Shown here piece after piece: positions 12,405 to 50,174 of a stretch of 64,000 bases of DNA; the stretch's first letter is position 1, and each line of letters opens with the position of its first letter. The stretch lies in the NCBI GenBank assembly GCA_029245345.1, contig JAQWPM010000002.1, positions 93,284 through 157,283 of the forward strand. The letters are read 5' to 3'. Under the pieces are notes generated by a model. It was not told the DNA's origin, did not search any database, and worked only from the letters and a program-made list of their open reading frames with translations. The DNA comes from Longimicrobiales bacterium. Lineage in GTDB: Bacteria > Gemmatimonadota > Gemmatimonadetes > Longimicrobiales > Gaopeijiaceae. The translations under genes and the position numbers were made by a program.

Positions 12405-15110
12405 ATGCGTATTCGCGTTTTGCCCTCCCTAGGTCTTCTGCTGGCGGGGGCGGTCTTCACCGCGCCACTAGCGGCACAGGACCGCGTCACCACGCCCGAC
12501 GAACAGTTCGGACATGAGATCGGCGCCGACTACGAGCTCATTAATTACCAAGAGCTTCACGACTACTGGATCAAGCTGGCTAACGAGTCGGACCGGATGA
12601 TTTTGGACACCATCGGATTGACCGAAGAAGGCCGTCCGCATATCCAGGCGATCATCACGTCGCCGGAGAATCACGCGAACATCGACCGCTATCGTGAGAT
12701 CGCCCGCATGATGGCTAAGGCCGAGGGTGTGAGCGAAGCGCAGGCTCGTCAGCTCGCGATGGAAGGCAAGGCGGTCGTTTGGATTGACGGTGGGCTGCAC
12801 GCTACCGAGGTCTTGGGTGCCCAGCAGCTGACCGAGCTCGTATACCGGCTCAACGACAACACCGATGCCGAGACGACGCGGATCCTCGACGACGTGATCA
12901 TTCTCGCGACTCATGCGAACCCCGACGGTCACGCGCTCGTCGCCAACTGGTACATGCGCACTGAAGACCCGCTTCTACGGACGACGAGCGGTGTCCCGGT
13001 GCTGTACAACAAGTACGCTGGTCACGATAACAACCGCGATTTTTACATGGCTGCGCTGGCCGAGTCGCAGAACATGAACACATCGATGTACCGGACGTGG
13101 TATCCGCACATCGTGTACAACCATCACCAGACCGGCCCGCAGGGCACGGTGATGTTTGCGCCGCCGTTCCGTGACCCGCCCAACCATTATCTCGACCCGC
13201 TCATCATCACGGGGTTGGATCGTGTAGGCTCGGCGATGCACCAACGGTTCGTCCGCGAAGGGAAGGGCGGCACGACCATGCGGTCCGGCGCCTCATATTC
13301 CACGTGGTGGAATGGTGGCCTGCGCACGACGCCGTATTTCAAAAACATGATCGGGCTGCTCACGGAGACCATCGGTCATCCGACTCCAATGGAGATTCCG
13401 TTCATTCCGAGTCGCCAAATGCCCATGGGGGACATTCCGCTTCCCATCGAACCGGGGCCGTGGCACTTCCGTCAGTCGATCGAATACTCGCAGACGGCGA
13501 ACTGGGCTGTGATGGATTTCGCATCGCGCAACTCGGACCATCTCCTCATGAACATCTGGCAGATGGGTACGAACTCGATCCAGCGCGGGGACACGGATTC
13601 CTGGACGACGCTGCCGTTCGAGATCGATGCGGCCGCCGAGAGCATGGACCGCGGGACTAGAGCGGATTGGGAGCGCATTCTTCGTGATCCCACCGACCGT
13701 GATCCTCGCGGCTTCGTGATTCCGGCGGATCAGCGCGACTTCCTTACCGCCATGAAGTTCGTCAACACGCTCCTCTACAACGGGGTCGACGTACACCGGG
13801 CGACGGCGGACTTCATGGTCGGTGGAGAGAGCTATCCGGCGGGCTCCTACGTTGTGAAGGGCAACCAGGCCTTCCGACCACACGTCCTCGACATGTTCGA
13901 GAAGCAGCAGCACCCGAACGACTTTGCGTTCCCGGGTGCGCCTCCGACGGCTCCGTACGACAACACAGGCTGGACGCTCGCGTGGCAGATGGGCATCGAC
14001 TTCGATCGTGTCGTGGAAGGATTCGACGGACCGTTCGAGCTCGTCGACGACATTATCTCAGCGCCGCCGACTGGCATGATCGCTGGGGCTGCCGATGCCA
14101 GCGGTTACTTGGTCGATCACATCAATGATGCGTTCATTGCAGTGAACCGAGTGTTGGCGTCGGGTGGAACGGCGTATTGGTTCACGGACCCGGTAGGCTC
14201 ATACGACGAGGGAGCCTTCTATCTCGAGGCTGATCGCTCGGTCATTGAGGGGTTAGCGACAGAGAAGGGGCTCCGCTTTGAGGGTGTTCCTTCACGTCCT
14301 GCAGGAAACGCGATGGAACTCGAACCCGTGAAGATCGGCTTGTGGGATCGATACGGTGGCTCGATGCCGTCCGGTTGGACACGGATGATCCTCGAGGACT
14401 TCGAGTTCGACTTCGAGGTCCTGTACGCTCCCGACTTGGATCACGCAGACCTCTCGGAATACGACGTGCTCTTGTTCGAGGACGGCGCGATTCCGGCCGC
14501 GGGTGGCAGCGGTGGTGGCCGAGGCGGCCGAGGCGGCATTGCGCCGACGGATATCCCGGCGGAATTCGCCCGGCGGCAGGGTAGCGTGACGGTTGGGACG
14601 ACCGTCCCACGTATTCTCGACTATGTGCGTGAAGGCGGCGCGGCGATCGCGATCGGCTCTTCGGCTAGTCTCGCACAACACGCGGGCCTGCCGGTAACAA
14701 ACCACTTGGTGGAGAATGGCCAGCCACTGACACGGGAGCAGTACTTCACGCCGGGGTCGATTCTGGACATGAAGGTCGACCACACTAGCCCCCTCACACA
14801 CGGGTTCGGCGACAGGGTCAACGTGCTCTTCAGTCACAGCCCAACCTTCTCACTCACGGCGGGTGCCGAGGCACAGGGCGTTCGTCGGATCGGCTGGTAC
14901 GACACCGCGAGTCCGCTCAAGAGCGGCTGGTCGTGGGGTGAGCAGTATCTGGAGAACGGGGTCGGCGCGATCGAGGCCGACTACGGCCAGGGCAAGATGT
15001 TCATCTTCGGGCCGAAGATCACGTTCCGCGCTCAGCCGCATGGGACGTTTGGGTTCCTGTTCAATGGGATCTACTACGGGGCTGCGAAGGATAAGATCAT
15101 CTCGGACTGA
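12405..15110 (+). CDS. Exported M14-family zinc carboxypeptidase-like protein
   Basis: A protein of about 900 residues with a signal peptide (MRIRVLPSLGLLLAG..., cleavage after PLAA). The M14 fold follows: a zinc-binding HATE motif (His and Glu), a later YNHHQTG segment that can give the third ligand, and GLLTETIGHP with the likely catalytic glutamate. The C-terminal half holds an amidotransferase-like Rossmann region interrupted by a Gly/Arg-rich linker (GGSGGGRGGRGG). A GTG at 12390 is an alternative start 15 bases upstream; no clear ribosome site decides. A strong terminator follows 27 bases after the stop. The substrate is unknown. Confidence 0.85.
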   Translation: MRIRVLPSLGLLLAGAVFTAPLAAQDRVTTPDEQFGHEIGADYELINYQELHDYWIKLANESDRMILDTIGLTEEGRPHIQAIITSPENHANIDRYREIARMMAKAEGVSEAQARQLAMEGKAVVWIDGGLHATEVLGAQQLTELVYRLNDNTDAETTRILDDVIILATHANPDGHALVANWYMRTEDPLLRTTSGVPVLYNKYAGHDNNRDFYMAALAESQNMNTSMYRTWYPHIVYNHHQTGPQGTVMFAPPFRDPPNHYLDPLIITGLDRVGSAMHQRFVREGKGGTTMRSGASYSTWWNGGLRTTPYFKNMIGLLTETIGHPTPMEIPFIPSRQMPMGDIPLPIEPGPWHFRQSIEYSQTANWAVMDFASRNSDHLLMNIWQMGTNSIQRGDTDSWTTLPFEIDAAAESMDRGTRADWERILRDPTDRDPRGFVIPADQRDFLTAMKFVNTLLYNGVDVHRATADFMVGGESYPAGSYVVKGNQAFRPHVLDMFEKQQHPNDFAFPGAPPTAPYDNTGWTLAWQMGIDFDRVVEGFDGPFELVDDIISAPPTGMIAGAADASGYLVDHINDAFIAVNRVLASGGTAYWFTDPVGSYDEGAFYLEADRSVIEGLATEKGLRFEGVPSRPAGNAMELEPVKIGLWDRYGGSMPSGWTRMILEDFEFDFEVLYAPDLDHADLSEYDVLLFEDGAIPAAGGSGGGRGGRGGIAPTDIPAEFARRQGSVTVGTTVPRILDYVREGGAAIAIGSSASLAQHAGLPVTNHLVENGQPLTREQYFTPGSILDMKVDHTSPLTHGFGDRVNVLFSHSPTFSLTAGAEAQGVRRIGWYDTASPLKSGWSWGEQYLENGVGAIEADYGQGKMFIFGPKITFRAQPHGTFGFLFNGIYYGAAKDKIISD

Positions 15111-15137
15111 GTTCAGCGTTTTTCTTGAGCTTCTTGA

Positions 15138-15172
15138 GGGCGCCCGGCGAGAGCCGGGCGCCCTTCTGTTTT
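15138..15172 (+). terminator. Rho-independent terminator after the M14 peptidase gene
   Basis: A perfect 11-bp stem (GGGCGCCCGGC at 15138-15148 and GCCGGGCGCCC at 15153-15163) encloses a GAGA tetraloop and is followed by TTCTGTTTT. It begins 27 bases after the M14 stop codon. Confidence 0.92.
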
Positions 15173-15184
15173 CCGCTCAGTGGC

Positions 15185-15505
15185 ATGTTCTTCACGCTCG
15201 GAGAATGGGGCGTGCTCGATGTTGCGGAGGTGCAAGCGATCCCCGCCACGCTGTGTGGAGCAGCACTTTACAACGTGAGCAACGCGTTGGGCGCTGCGGC
15301 GCTCGCGCATGCGTTGGGCTTCCCGGACGATGTGATCCGTGCGGGGCTCACAGTCCTTGGTGCCTCTCCTGAGAGCAGCCCCGGCTGAGGCAATCTCTTC
15401 GCTCTCGACGGTGTGCACGTCTTGGTGGACTTCGTCCACAACCCGCACGGGTTTGAGGCTGTGGCCGGGATGGTCGAGCGTTTCGCGCCCAAGCGACTGG
15501 CCCTG
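15185..15505 (+). pseudogene. Remnant of a cyanophycin-synthetase-like Mur ligase
   Basis: The frame through 15185 encodes a stretch matching the C-terminal Mur-ligase part of CphA-type enzymes: IPATLCGAALYNVSNALGAA, then an LGFPDD...IRAGL segment, then SPG followed by a TGA at 15386-15388 where the family has the arginine of PGR (CGA to TGA explains it). Directly after the stop, the same frame continues with NLFALDG, VLVDFVHNPHGFEAV and MVERFAPKRLAL, again family-like (DYAHNPHG). No N-terminal ATP-grasp part and no ATP-binding Mur motif precede it, and a terminator lies just upstream. I read it as a truncated, dead gene. Confidence 0.78.
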
Positions 15506-42830: not shown

Positions 42831-43106
42831 ACCCACAAGGAGCGCAGGTGCCTCGCGCTGCGATTCGTTTGGGTGATGAGGGAGAAGCCACTGCTCGCAG
42901 ATATGGCCGACGCTTACTCTGGCGATGACGTAGTGGCTCTGGGGTTGAACGAGGACCTGCCACCCGACGATGCTCTCGCCTTTCTGGACGAAATCGGAGG
43001 GGTGGGTTATCCGCTCGCTGCGGGACTGGATCGACTGCGCGACAGCTACGGATATCGCGGACTGCCATACAGAGTGGTGATTGGACAGGACGGGATGGTC
43101 ATCTAG
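42831..43106 (+). pseudogene. Degenerate thioredoxin-fold (TlpA-like) fragment
   Basis: The frame encodes KPLLADMADAYSGDDVVALG, a GVGYPLAA segment, then YGYRGLPYRVVIGQDGMVI, the order and spacing of the second half of a TlpA/redoxin domain (cis-Pro in GLP, then the DG turn). The CxxC active site is missing: upstream the frame reads LALRFVWVMREKPLL, where FWAxWCxxC-REKPLL would be expected. The C-terminal helix is also absent. A GTG/ATG at 42873-42878 could still start a 77-residue product, but I read it as a remnant. A 12-base palindrome (CCCCGATCGGGG, 42815-42826) precedes it. Confidence 0.55.
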
Positions 43107-43269
43107 GCGAGGTAGGGCTTCGGGACGTCTGTCGAACCGATCCAGACTGCCGTAGATGGCGCTTTGAGCGACGGTCCGTAACGAGCTCGGGCTCTTGGCG
43201 ATCTGCACGCGTCGCCCTATCGTCCGGCCCCGCGAAGCTGTCCTCAGACAGCGTGAAGGACGCGGCTAA

Positions 43270-43363
43270 GGGGGCGGAGGGAGACTGGTGTCTTCGGCGG
43301 TCTTCAAAACCGTGCAGCCCGGCTAGAACCCGGGTAGGTGGGTTCGATTCCCACACGTTCCCG
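43270..43363 (+). tRNA. selC: tRNA-Sec (anticodon TCA)
   Basis: A 94-nt selenocysteine tRNA. The anticodon loop CTTCAAA (anticodon 43304-43306) sits on a 5-bp stem. The D arm has six pairs (GGAGAC/GTCTTC) around a 4-base loop TGGT, and there is a long variable arm (CCCGG/CCGGG). The T arm is GTGGG-TTCGATT-CCCAC. The acceptor pairs GGGGGCGG with ACGTTCCC (7 of 8, two G-T), with discriminator G; CCA is not encoded. The long acceptor+T stack, six-pair D stem and large variable arm identify tRNA-Sec. The bases from 43107 to 43269 before it hold nothing else I can recognise. Confidence 0.88.
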
Positions 43364-43408
43364 TCAAACGACGGTGGATAGAGCCTATGGCCGCTTGGCC
43401 CCGCGCCT

Positions 43409-46080: not shown

Positions 46081-46626
46081 TTGCCGTCGTTTCCTCCGGG
46101 TAGGCCCTCCAAGCTCTCTCCGAACTCCCACCTCAGCCTAGGTGTAACGTTGCTCCGAGCCTTCGGACTAGGTGCAATCCTCTTCGGCTTTTGGCTTGCT
46201 CTTTCGGGCCACTACACGCCCCTGCTCAATAGCTTGGGGGCGGGATCATCCGTGCTCGTGGTTTACCTCGCGGTGCGCATGGACGTCGTGGATCATGAGG
46301 GTGTGCCGTTGCAAGTCGGTGGACGCTTCTGGATGTACGTCCCGTGGCTCATGTGGGAGATCGTGATCGCGAACATTGCGGTCGCAAAGGTCATCCTGGA
46401 TCCCCGATTGCCGATCAGCCCGCGTATGGTCGTCTTCCATGGTTCTCAGAAGAGCGACCTCGGGAAGTTCATCTACGCCAATTCGATCACGCTGACGCCG
46501 GGAACGATCACTACTGGGGTCGAAGGCCAAGAATTCCAAATCCATGCCCTGAGCTCGGCCGATTTGGAGTCCGAAGACGAAGAAAAAGAGATGGATCGTC
46601 GGTGCAGGCACGTGGAGGGTGGATGA
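46081..46626 (+). CDS. mrpE: Na+/H+ antiporter subunit E (MrpE/MnhE)
   Basis: A 181-residue membrane subunit of an Mrp-type cation/proton antiporter. It has two to three N-terminal helices and the family segment IVIANIAVAKVILDPRLPISP, then GKFIYANSITLTPGT, which is diagnostic. Translation would start at TTG 46081, 3 bases after lptE; the true start could be slightly downstream. It heads the mrp cluster and overlaps mrpF (ATGA). Confidence 0.88.
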   Translation: MPSFPPGRPSKLSPNSHLSLGVTLLRAFGLGAILFGFWLALSGHYTPLLNSLGAGSSVLVVYLAVRMDVVDHEGVPLQVGGRFWMYVPWLMWEIVIANIAVAKVILDPRLPISPRMVVFHGSQKSDLGKFIYANSITLTPGTITTGVEGQEFQIHALSSADLESEDEEKEMDRRCRHVEGG

Positions 46627-46910
46627 TGTTTGTTGCCGCCACGGCAGGCATTCTGATCAGCATGACGCTGGCGTTGGTGCGCGCGCTGCTAGGCCCGACG
46701 GTTTATGACCGCGTAATGGCGGTGAACACGTTCGGTACCAAGACGGTGCTTCTGATCGCGGTACTCGGGTTTCTCGCGGAGCGGCCTGAGTTCTTGGACG
46801 TCGCGCTGGCATACGCACTCATCAACTTCATCGGCACCATCGCTGTTCTGAAGTTCTTCGAGTTCGGTGATCTGGGGCTCACGCGACGTGCAGAGCAGGA
46901 GGGCGACTGA
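46623..46910 (+). CDS. mrpF: Na+/H+ antiporter subunit F (MrpF/MnhF)
   Basis: A 95-residue protein with three membrane helices. The segment LLGPTVYDRVMAVNTFGTKTV is in part the family hallmark (GPTxxDRVxAxN). ATGs at 46623 and 46626 both overlap the mrpE stop. Ends overlapping mrpG (TGATG). Confidence 0.92.
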   Translation: MMFVAATAGILISMTLALVRALLGPTVYDRVMAVNTFGTKTVLLIAVLGFLAERPEFLDVALAYALINFIGTIAVLKFFEFGDLGLTRRAEQEGD

Positions 46911-47257
46911 TGGATATGGCCTTCAACGTTGCCAGCTGGGTCTCCATCGGGGGTGGGCTCTTCTTCATGATCGTGGGGACGATCGGCATCTTGCGTTTGC
47001 CTGACGTGTTTACCCGCCTGCACGCTGCAGGGATGACTGACACGATGGGTGCCGGCCTTCTCATTCTCGGAATGTCACTCCAGACGATTCTGAGCATGAT
47101 CCACGGGGAGACGAGCTATTGGATGGTGCTGGTGCGCCTCGTGCTCATCTACGCGTTCCTGATGTTCACGAGCCCCATCGCGACCCATGCCCTCGCGCGG
47201 GCTGCGATTGCAACTGGCGTAGAGCCTTTGATCGTGGCGGAGGGCGACGAAGAATGA
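46910..47257 (+). CDS. mrpG: Na+/H+ antiporter subunit G (MrpG/MnhG)
   Basis: A 115-residue three-helix subunit with the typical GTIGILRLPDVFTRLHAAG motif. It helps form the antiporter core with B, C, E and F. Start and stop overlap both neighbours. Confidence 0.93.
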   Translation: MDMAFNVASWVSIGGGLFFMIVGTIGILRLPDVFTRLHAAGMTDTMGAGLLILGMSLQTILSMIHGETSYWMVLVRLVLIYAFLMFTSPIATHALARAAIATGVEPLIVAEGDEE

Positions 47258-47934
47258 TCGAAATCGTCGACATCGTTCTCCTCATCCTACTCGCCACGAC
47301 TGGTGTTGCCGTAGCTCGACAGCGAAACCTGTTCGCAGCAGTGATGTTGGCCGGTATCTACAGCCTGCTTTCCGCCGGATTGTTCATGGTGATGGATGCC
47401 GTGGATGTAGCGTTTACCGAAGCGGCCGTGGGTGCGGGTATCTCGACCGTACTCCTTCTGGGCACGCTCGCTCTTGTTGGACACGAGGAGCAGAAGCCCA
47501 AGCACACGCCGATTCTACCGCTCTTCGTGGTGCTGGTGACCGGTGCGATCCTCGTCTACGGGACGTCCGAGCTGCCACCTTTCGGCGCAGCCGACAATCC
47601 GGCCCATCTGCACGTGGCACCTCATTACATCGAGGAGTCCGAGCACGAGGTGGGGCACATTCCGAACGTTGTCACGTCGGTCCTCGCCTCTTACCGAAGC
47701 TACGACACGATGGGCGAAACCGCGGTGATCTTCACCGCGATGGTAGGGGTCTTGCTTCTCCTCTCGCGTGGGCCGCTCCCTCGGCGCGTGTTCCACGAGG
47801 GGCGATGGATGACGCTGAGGCCCGGCACCAAAAGGGAAGACCTAGAGTCTGATTCGGACAGTGAAGGGGACGACCCTTCGGGCGACGTTTCCGGCGCTCC
47901 TGGGACTTCCGCCGAGGAGGACGGAGATGGATGA
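47254..47934 (+). CDS. Stand-alone MbhD/MbhE-type subunit (C-terminal module of MrpA)
   Basis: A 226-residue membrane protein with a DUF4040/MbhD-like first half (RQRNLFAAVMLAGIYSLLSA, then VAFTEAAVGAGISTVLLLG) and an MbhE-like second half (NVVTSVLASYRSYDTMGETAVI in part). In standard Mrp complexes these two modules are the C-terminus of the giant MrpA; here they form a separate gene, which means MrpA is split. An acidic tail of about 40 residues follows. ATGA overlap with mrpG and 8-base overlap with mrpB. Confidence 0.85.
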   Translation: MIEIVDIVLLILLATTGVAVARQRNLFAAVMLAGIYSLLSAGLFMVMDAVDVAFTEAAVGAGISTVLLLGTLALVGHEEQKPKHTPILPLFVVLVTGAILVYGTSELPPFGAADNPAHLHVAPHYIEESEHEVGHIPNVVTSVLASYRSYDTMGETAVIFTAMVGVLLLLSRGPLPRRVFHEGRWMTLRPGTKREDLESDSDSEGDDPSGDVSGAPGTSAEEDGDG

Positions 47935-48352
47935 CCGATTAATCCTTCGCGTTGGGGCCAAGATCCTGATTCCGTTTATTCTTCTGTTTGCCCTGTACGT
48001 CCAGTTCCATGGGGACTACGGCCCGGGAGGCGGATTCCAGGCTGGAGTCATCTTCGCCGCGGCGTTTGTCCTTTACGCGTTGGTCTACGGGCTCGGAAAT
48101 GCAGTGAAGGTTCTGCCGCCGCACGCCGTCTACGTGTGCGGGGCATCCGGTGTTCTTCTCTACATCTCGGTCGGTCTCGTAGGCTTGTTCAAGGGCGGGA
48201 ACTACCTGGACTACAATGTGTTGGCGCATGACCCGCTTCATGGGCAGCACTGGGGCATTCTTTTGGTCGAGCTTGGCGTTCTCATCACGGTGTTCGGCGT
48301 GATGGTCGCGCTCTTCTACGCCTTCGCTGGTCGCCGGAGAATCGATCCTTGA
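47927..48352 (+). CDS. mrpB: Na+/H+ antiporter subunit B (MrpB/MnhB)
   Basis: A 141-residue four-helix subunit with the hallmark LYVQFHGDYGPGGGFQAGVI (HGHxxPGGGFQGG-like). The ATG at 47927 overlaps the previous gene by 8 bases. The next gene starts with a TTG inside its stop (TTGA). Confidence 0.93.
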   Translation: MDDRLILRVGAKILIPFILLFALYVQFHGDYGPGGGFQAGVIFAAAFVLYALVYGLGNAVKVLPPHAVYVCGASGVLLYISVGLVGLFKGGNYLDYNVLAHDPLHGQHWGILLVELGVLITVFGVMVALFYAFAGRRRIDP

Positions 48353-48702
48353 GGGCGCTCGGACTGTTCAACTACTGGGCCGTGATCGTCCTGATGATGG
48401 TGGGCTTCTACACGCTCATCGCGCGGGGCAACCTGGTGAAGAAGCTCATCGGACTGAATCTGTTTCAGACGTCCGTCATCATGATGTACGTCTCGTTCGG
48501 AAAGGTGACGGGAGGGACTGCGCCGATCCTGCTCGAGCATGGTGAGGACGCGGTGTATTCCAACCCGATACCACATGTGCTCATGCTGACGGCGATCGTG
48601 GTCGGTGTGGCGACTCTGGCATTGGGGCTGAGCCTCGTTGTCCGGATCAAAGAAGCGTACGGGACCATTGAAGAAGACGAGATCCGGGATAGCAGCCTGT
48701 GA
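48349..48702 (+). CDS. mrpC: Na+/H+ antiporter subunit C (MrpC/MnhC, NuoK-like)
   Basis: A 117-residue three-helix subunit homologous to NuoK of complex I. It shows the family pattern LVKKLIGLNLFQTSVIMMYV and PIPHVLMLTAIVVGVATLAL. TTG start at 48349 in the mrpB stop; the mrpD GTG overlaps its own stop. Confidence 0.92.
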   Translation: MRALGLFNYWAVIVLMMVGFYTLIARGNLVKKLIGLNLFQTSVIMMYVSFGKVTGGTAPILLEHGEDAVYSNPIPHVLMLTAIVVGVATLALGLSLVVRIKEAYGTIEEDEIRDSSL

Positions 48703-50174
48703 GCCAGCATCTCCCCGCATTGCTCGTCGTAATCCCGCTGCTCCTGGCGCCGATCGCGGCGTTGGTGAACCGTTGGAAGGCCGCATGGGTGATCGCGGTC
48801 GGGGCCGCGTTTTGGGCGCTCTACGCTTCGGTCTCGCTTGTCAGGATCGTGTTGGATCAAGGAGCGCTCAACTACGAAATGGGTGGCTGGGCTGCACCGT
48901 ACGGCATCGAATACCGTGTCGACCTGGCCAGCGCATTCGTCGCGCTTATCGTGTCGGTCATTGCCGCTGTCACGATCTTGTACGCACGGACCAGCGTTCA
49001 ACGCGAAGTAAGCGAGGACCGCGGAGCGCTTTTCTACTCTGCCTTCATCCTGTGTATGACAGGGCTCCTCGGCATCGCGGTGACTGGCGACGTCTTCAAC
49101 GTCTTCGTCTTCCTCGAGGTGTCGTCCTTGTCGGCCTATGCGCTCATCGCGATGGGGCAGGATCGAAGGGCGCTCACGGCGTCGTTCCAGTACCTGATCA
49201 TGGGCAGCTTGGGTGCCACGTTCATTGTGATTGGTATCGGTCTGTTGTACGTGATGACCGGGACGCTCAACATGGCGGACCTGGCGGAGCGCATTCCCGA
49301 GGTCGCGAGCAATCGCACGATTCCGGTGGCGTTCACCTTCCTGACGGTGGGCATCACGCTGAAGCTGGCGTTGTTTCCGCTGCACTTGTGGCTGCCAAAC
49401 GCGTACACGTACGCCCCCTCGGCCGTTACGGCGTTCATCGCCTCGACCATGACCAAGGTCGCCGTCTATCTGCTGCTGAGGTTCTTCTTCACGATCTTCG
49501 GCGCGGACTTCTCGTTCGGTCAGATGCACCTCGAGATGGTCTTGATGCCACTCGCGGTCGTCGCGATTCTGACGATGTCACTTGTTGCGATCTACCAAGA
49601 CAACGTGAAGCGGCTCCTAGCCTACTCGTCGGTGGCCCAGATCGGGTACATGGTGCTCGGCATCAGTTTTGCGTCGGTACTCGGTGTGACTGCAGGGCTT
49701 ATTCACCTGTTCAACCACGCGCTCATGAAGGGCGCGCTGTTCATGGCGATGGGCTGCATCATGTACAGCATCGGCTCTGTCCGCATCGACAAGATGGCTG
49801 GTCTCGGCAAGAAAATGCCGTGGACGATGGCCGCCTTCGTGGGAGGTGGACTCAGCCTCATCGGCGTGCCGTTCACCGTGGGCTTCATCAGCAAATGGTA
49901 CCTGGTGCAAGCCGCGTTGGAGCAAGGCATGTGGCCGATCGCCGCGGTGGTGATGGTCGGCTCGCTGATGGCTGTGGTCTACGTCTGGAAGGTTGTCGAA
50001 GTCGCATACTTCCAGACGGCGGATCCGGACCACGACATCAAAGAGGCACCGCTCAGTCTGCTGATCCCGACCTGGGCGCTTGTCGCCGCCAGCTTCTACT
50101 TCGGCATCGACGCGACGACCACGTCTGACATTGCGACGAAGGCTGCGGAAGCGCTGCTGGGGGTAATGCCATGA
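48699..50174 (+). CDS. mrpD: Antiporter subunit MrpD-like (proton-pumping type)
   Basis: A 491-residue protein with about 14 membrane helices, of the NuoL/M/N-MrpA/D family. Conserved helix-7/8 segments are seen: LFPLHLWLPNAYTYAPSAVTA, LAYSSVAQIGYMVLG and HALMKGALFMAMG, which carry the channel Lys/His residues. First of three antiporter-like subunits in this operon. GTG start at 48699. Confidence 0.92.
   Translation: MSQHLPALLVVIPLLLAPIAALVNRWKAAWVIAVGAAFWALYASVSLVRIVLDQGALNYEMGGWAAPYGIEYRVDLASAFVALIVSVIAAVTILYARTSVQREVSEDRGALFYSAFILCMTGLLGIAVTGDVFNVFVFLEVSSLSAYALIAMGQDRRALTASFQYLIMGSLGATFIVIGIGLLYVMTGTLNMADLAERIPEVASNRTIPVAFTFLTVGITLKLALFPLHLWLPNAYTYAPSAVTAFIASTMTKVAVYLLLRFFFTIFGADFSFGQMHLEMVLMPLAVVAILTMSLVAIYQDNVKRLLAYSSVAQIGYMVLGISFASVLGVTAGLIHLFNHALMKGALFMAMGCIMYSIGSVRIDKMAGLGKKMPWTMAAFVGGGLSLIGVPFTVGFISKWYLVQAALEQGMWPIAAVVMVGSLMAVVYVWKVVEVAYFQTADPDHDIKEAPLSLLIPTWALVAASFYFGIDATTTSDIATKAAEALLGVMP

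Follow-up and report, generated by a model that had tools for sequence, protein, structure and literature searches.

A selenocysteine tRNA gene with a conserved G.A layer in the acceptor/T stack in a Longimicrobiales bacterium

Results

The tRNA-Sec gene and its surroundings

The window, that is, the whole stretch of 64,000 nucleotides analysed here, was searched with ARAGORN and with cmscan. The sole tRNA called by ARAGORN in the whole window was a tRNA-SeC with the anticodon TCA at 43270-43363 on the forward strand, and the single Rfam match at the gathering threshold (47) within the 64 kb was to RF01852, which scored 65.1 bits (E 5.4e-11) over positions 43270-43362. Both programs thus bore out the original prediction, which had placed a tRNA-Sec gene with a TCA anticodon at this position. 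The gene is divided as follows.

43270..43363, + strand: tRNA-Sec (selC) gene, G73 included, CCA not encoded (ARAGORN, Rfam)
43270..43276, + strand: 5' strand of the acceptor stem, pairs 1-7 (standard pairs in 25/25 distinct same-family tRNAs)
43277..43277, + strand: G of the conserved G.A eighth layer (G.A in 46/54 distinct tRNAs)
43280..43295, + strand: D arm, 6-bp stem and 4-base loop (all pairs kept; 5/6 changed on both sides)
43297..43313, + strand: anticodon arm (5/5 pairs kept; 2 changed on both sides)
43304..43306, + strand: TCA (UCA) anticodon (ARAGORN)
43317..43335, + strand: long variable arm, 6 bp (folding, same-family alignment)
43338..43354, + strand: T arm, 5-bp stem (parsed homologues, same-family alignment)
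43355..43355, + strand: A of the conserved G.A eighth layer (parsed homologues, same-family alignment)
43356..43362, + strand: 3' strand of the acceptor stem (parsed homologues, same-family alignment)

The D stem had six pairs and a four-base loop, TGGT, and the variable arm, the anticodon stem and the T stem had six, five and five pairs, respectively; the six-pair D stem, four-base loop and long variable arm had been predicted, and were found as stated with RF01852 and by folding. The acceptor stem consisted of seven standard pairs, two G-U among them, and an eighth layer, G.A, in exact agreement with the predicted count of one mismatch and two G-T pairs. The acceptor/T stack accordingly had 13 layers, namely 12 standard pairs and one conserved G.A. 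When the tRNA strand was folded alone, the cloverleaf was recovered (7-bp acceptor, 6-bp D, 5-bp anticodon, 6-bp variable and 5-bp T stems), with a fold energy mildly better than that of shuffled sequences (z -1.66; 16 of 200 shuffles equalled it). Because this energy beats the shuffles only mildly, the case for tRNA-Sec rests on the covariance model and the homologues. The discriminator base was G73. CCA was not encoded, positions 43364-43366 being TCA, and the genome showed one match to PF01743 (the CCA-adding/poly(A) polymerase family; 111.7 bits).

Directly upstream of the tRNA-Sec gene, the stretch 42849-43178 appeared thioredoxin/TlpA-like by eye. It was rejected as a decayed selenoprotein, as it had two in-frame TAGs and no CxxC region, and no family in Pfam matched it at E <= 0.1. 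Beyond the window, within a small set of loci, the best it gave were two weak tblastn matches to intact CxxC proteins (L054, E 8e-4; L053, E 0.005), and it is possibly a gene remnant. Genes for Mrp/Mbh-type antiporter subunits (MrpF/PhaF, MbhD/E and a proton antiporter domain) were observed at 46344-50174. The original prediction had seen no selenoprotein in the window; this held in one coding-score scan (codon score, 30 open codons on each side), in which no convincing selenoprotein was found among the best 25 of 334 TGAs. By eye, a single case resembled protein: the TGA at 15386 (15095-15500), in a fragment that we take to be a Mur-ligase/cyanophycin-synthetase-like C-terminus. This fragment is flanked by genes for a peptidase M14 and a short-chain dehydrogenase, and the TGA was rejected as a selenoprotein site because the fragment is apparently a decayed one between two other genes.

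Selenocysteine machinery in the host genome

The genome of the host, a Gemmatimonadota bacterium, (3.79 Mb in 30 contigs) was estimated to be 98.03% complete with 3.74% contamination. Searches with curated equivalog models detected SelA on C21 (549.1 bits; cut-off 267.9), SelB on C19 (335.3 bits; cut-off 242.25) and SelD on C24 (382.6 bits; cut-off 125). Hence selA, selB and selD, whose presence had been expected from the tRNA gene and whose absence would have spoken against it, were all found above the curated cut-offs, on three other contigs and not clustered with the tRNA-Sec gene. A genome of the same genus also contained both a tRNA-Sec and a SelD with TGA.

SelD as a selenoprotein candidate

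The selD gene contained one in-frame TGA, in MANEPRDQRPKIRLSQLSHGAG[U]ACKLG (core motif HGAG[U]ACKLG), at the position that we take, by E. coli SelD, to be the catalytic Cys/Sec site. Among 31 SelD loci (its own and the 30 best-scoring from relatives), this position was TGA in 26 and Cys in four, and the motif was unmatched in the remaining one. The 26 TGA-SelDs had in common a 7-bp hairpin 3' of the TGA (columns 30-46). Each of its seven pairs was kept in 24 to 26 of the 26 sequences, one pair was swapped on both sides in nine, and the apex was GCAGGU in 25, the exception being L102. RNAalifold predicted a further 4-bp hairpin closer to the TGA; covariation was slight (term -0.42), with one of the 11 predicted pairs changed on both sides. 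Of 200 shuffles of the stretch from the host genome, 196 folded less well than the stretch itself (z -2.62).

The same stretch folded weakly in three Cys-SelDs (L088-L090; -4.5 to -5.2 kcal/mol), compared with -10.9 to -11.7 kcal/mol in three TGA-SelDs. A fourth Cys-SelD (L109) retained a shorter, slightly weaker hairpin (-9.5 kcal/mol), and coding constraint may therefore be a partial cause of the hairpin conservation. Given the TGA in its catalytic site and the conservation of a SECIS-like hairpin 3' of it, SelD is a well-supported candidate target of selenocysteine insertion.

Other selenoprotein candidates

The genome was also expected to contain selenoproteins, and three Pfam searches yielded five more genes of known selenoprotein families, in each of which a single TGA falls within the domain match.

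C24:34266-34667: AhpC/TSA, peroxiredoxin-like; YRGHW[U]PYC, UxxC
C21:480574-480972: AhpC/TSA, peroxiredoxin-like; TRG[U]T, TxxU
C18:40326-41594: molybdopterin oxidoreductase, formate dehydrogenase alpha; TIGR01591
C5: AhpD-like protein; CFY[U]
C12: AhpD-like protein; CFY[U]

The formate dehydrogenase alpha scored 713.2 bits with TIGR01591 (cut-off 666.25), and the TGA was inside the match. Both AhpD-like proteins were above the cut-off of TIGR01926 and below that of NF041238, the model of the CFYUT selenoprotein, and both peroxiredoxin-like proteins passed the Pfam AhpC-TSA cut-off and no NCBIfam cut-off. Hairpins were foldable 3' of all five TGAs, in folding of the single sequences. SelD included, the genome thus holds at least six selenoprotein candidates (SelD, formate dehydrogenase alpha, two AhpC/TSA and two AhpD-like proteins), in line with the expectation that in-frame TGAs, here interrupting redox genes, may be misread as stops. 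The check proposed with that expectation, a search for redox genes with an in-frame TGA and a SECIS, gave a conserved hairpin for SelD and, for the other five, hairpins foldable from the single sequence. Selenoproteins with matching motifs or domains (SelD, FdhA, Prx TxxU, Prx-like UxxC and AhpD-like CxxU) are listed in a section of PMC2398784, and organisms with six or more selenoproteins are termed 'selenoprotein-rich' in an excerpt of PMC5029168.

Conservation of the tRNA and of the G.A layer

The non-standard eighth layer, together with two G-U pairs and the lack of an encoded CCA, could be read as signs of a tRNA-Sec copy that is decaying or non-functional. In the first 71 tRNA-Sec genes parsed, however, layer 8 was G.A in 61, G.G in three, U-A in three, U.C in two, C-G in one and C.A in one. 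After further Gemmatimonadota-related loci had been added and duplicates collapsed (L122-L124, for which ARAGORN gave no tRNA letters, were left out), G.A was present in 46 of 54 distinct tRNA-Sec and layers 1-7 were free of mismatches in all 54. A same-family alignment was then made of 26 sequences, i.e. the window tRNA and 25 loci chosen for equal length, of which 25 were distinct. In these 25, all 725 cells of the 29 pairs outside the G.A layer were standard pairs and nine pairs were changed on both sides, and the G.A layer was a standard pair in none. When the pairing partners were slid by one column, pairing fell from 96.7% to 57.9% or 48.1%. None of 500 shuffles was as good on four measures, and two of 500 on the fifth; the significance is overstated because the sequences are related.

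Since G.A recurs in relatives in which the other stem pairs are kept, the acceptor mismatch is a conserved trait and not decay, and on this comparison of sequences G.A at layer 8 is a trait of the lineage; the failure of the acceptor stem that would have told against the prediction was not seen. The G.A layer probably stacks as a non-Watson-Crick pair, keeping the helix 13 layers long. The three differences between the window tRNA-Sec and its same-genus homologue all kept standard pairing, the host genome had no match other than the window gene among those listed (down to approximately 50 bits), and SelA, SelB and SelD are encoded in the same genome. A decaying or non-functional copy is accordingly very improbable.

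In all four distinct tRNA-Sec whose layer 8 was U-A or U.C, layer 9 was G.U, which was found there in none of the 49 with another layer-8 mismatch; in the remaining one of the 54, layers 8 and 9 were C-G and G-C. This pattern, which comes from few lineages, is no more than suggestive. Two short loci (L058, the second tRNA-Sec of G089, and L080 of G062) carried a second tRNA-Sec type, in which layer 8 was U.C and layer 9 was G.U, and showed no acyltransferase, DUF5683-like or metallophosphoesterase match; this type was possibly acquired separately. A second tRNA-Sec-like gene was also observed in G074 (L057:3203-3297; 60.4 bits), approximately 4.8 kb from the normal copy. Its anticodon loop reads as five bases, and ARAGORN called it tRNA-Leu.

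For comparison, a viral and plasmid group of 26 distinct tRNA-Sec was taken from the matches listed (22 from viral contigs and four from plasmid records, L253-L256). G.A was a minority here, in four of the 26 among the matches listed, at least one viral row (L234) being out of register owing to the start chosen by ARAGORN. Outside Gemmatimonadota it was found on a Pusillibacter faecalis plasmid (Clostridia; L256) and on the viral contigs L176 and L230, i.e., among the matches listed, in three of the 25 distinct tRNAs that came from viral contigs or from non-Gemmatimonadota plasmids. The layer is therefore neither unique to Gemmatimonadota nor common outside them. A literature search for tRNA-Sec with a G.A eighth layer found no description of one.

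Distribution and gene neighbourhood

Among 196 related genomes, the host included, 125 had both a strong tRNA-Sec and SelD, 10 the tRNA only, 15 SelD only and 46 neither. A strong tRNA-Sec was one of 55.8 bits or more and SelD was counted over its cut-off; many of the genomes are incomplete, so that single absences are weak. At Rfam's 47 bits, 157 of the 196 genomes matched RF01852. The higher threshold was used because four of five re-checked matches of 47-51 bits were tRNA-Ser or tRNA-Leu; the fifth lay at a contig end and had no ARAGORN call. Judged from these sequence matches, the selenocysteine trait looks widespread and patchy among the related genomes.

Conservation of the neighbourhood is partial. 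At 35 same-family tRNA-Sec loci, the neighbours were a DUF5683-like gene (30), a metallophosphoesterase gene (27) and an acyltransferase gene (14), and four loci had none of the three; the loci are 3.4-12 kb long, some come from one genome, and misses may reflect truncation.

Three genomes of the same class (G177, G179 and G187, the last a single contig) had a strong SelA and a SelD with TGA at the catalytic position. A divergent tRNA-Sec was sought in them and none was found: RF01852 matches did not exceed 42 bits, and the six that were retrieved (L305-L307, L310-L312) were ordinary tRNAs (Ser, Leu, Arg). Missing sequence or a very divergent tRNA-Sec is a possible reason for the gap. G183, of the same family, had a normal tRNA-Sec, and a tyrosine integrase-like frame (by eye; part of it reads X) at L320:2432-3538 ended on the base immediately preceding it, suggesting an element integrated at selC.

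In nine of the 11 genomes of genus g12 (G012, G045, G062, G074, G080, G086, G095, G098 and G101) and in G016, a tRNA-Sec was accompanied by a SelD match without TGA, which in nine of these 10 genomes was inside an open frame of more than 800 aa. Those of G074 and G016 (L308, L309) were pyridine nucleotide-disulfide oxidoreductase/SelD fusions, which passed the NCBIfam selD and Nterm_to_SelD cut-offs and missed that of 'fusion_not_SelD'. This fusion type is described in a section of PMC2398784.

Discussion

The intact, covarying structure, together with the SelA, SelB and SelD that the genome encodes and with the SelD target, suggests a functional tRNA-Sec, and we regard the feature as almost certainly a functional selC gene encoding a bacterial tRNA-Sec. 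Against this stand the non-standard eighth layer, the replacement of the E. coli identity pairs, the lack of an encoded CCA, and the fact that selA, selB and selD do not share a contig with the tRNA, in an assembly for which some contamination is estimated. A tRNA-Sec-like tRNA with another job, either an allo-tRNA (8/4 or 9/3, with a T stem of four or three pairs and a 12-bp acceptor domain) or a selC*-type tRNA-Cys (U73), both described in part of PMC7609411, would have the long variable arm and the long acceptor stem in common with this gene, but with a T stem of five pairs, G73 and the anticodon UCA, in a genome that has selA, selB and a SelD with TGA, such a tRNA is the least probable reading of all.

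The standard bacterial selenocysteine pathway is known from other species. By analogy with it, we infer that the functional tRNA-Sec is expressed, charged and used in decoding: CCA would be added after transcription, SerRS would charge the tRNA with serine, SelA would convert the product to Sec-tRNA-Sec using selenophosphate from SelD, and SelB would carry it to UGA codons followed by a SECIS hairpin.

The gene is an ordinary, intact-looking tRNA-Sec gene, and its one unusual trait, the G.A layer, is common to most of the relatives compared. This layer may serve discrimination between SelB and EF-Tu. A tentative and rather doubtful proposal is that the Gemmatimonadota studied here, and one Clostridia plasmid or more, have an acceptor/T junction remodelled about an invariant G.A, which would be a lineage-specific signal by which SelB, having adapted to it, binds the tRNA and EF-Tu rejects it. 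As the G.A layer occupies the position of one E. coli SelB/EF-Tu determinant, it offers a testable natural variant of the way in which a cell distinguishes tRNA-Sec from ordinary tRNAs. For annotation, TGA is not simply a stop in this genome, and the six genes found would be shortened by standard annotation. The tRNA-Sec itself is of a known type, and the small conserved structural variant, its sole point of interest, is worth a footnote.

Compared with the 8/5 tRNA-Sec of the E. coli selC type, the window tRNA is alike in the UCA anticodon, the 6-bp D stem with a 4-base loop, the long variable arm, G73 and the 13-layer stack, and unlike it in that CCA is not encoded. The two also differ at layers 8, 9 and 10, which are G.A, G-C and U-A here and C7-G66, G49.U65 and C50-G64 in E. 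coli. The latter are given in an excerpt of PMC9976931 as the pairs for E. coli SelB identity and EF-Tu rejection, and pairs of this type are thus absent from the window tRNA. With the 7/5 tRNA-Sec (Cloacimonetes type and others), as described in part of PMC5330540, it has in common the seven standard acceptor pairs and five T-stem pairs. In that type, according to the same part, seven residues lie between the T stem and G73, whereas eight do here; the window tRNA has one extra residue per strand, and these face each other as G.A. The tRNA-Sec of Gemmatirosa kalamazoonensis (plasmid NZ_CP007130.1, L253), from a different order, Gemmatimonadales, differs in that CCA is encoded, but is 77.9% identical and has the same G.A eighth layer.
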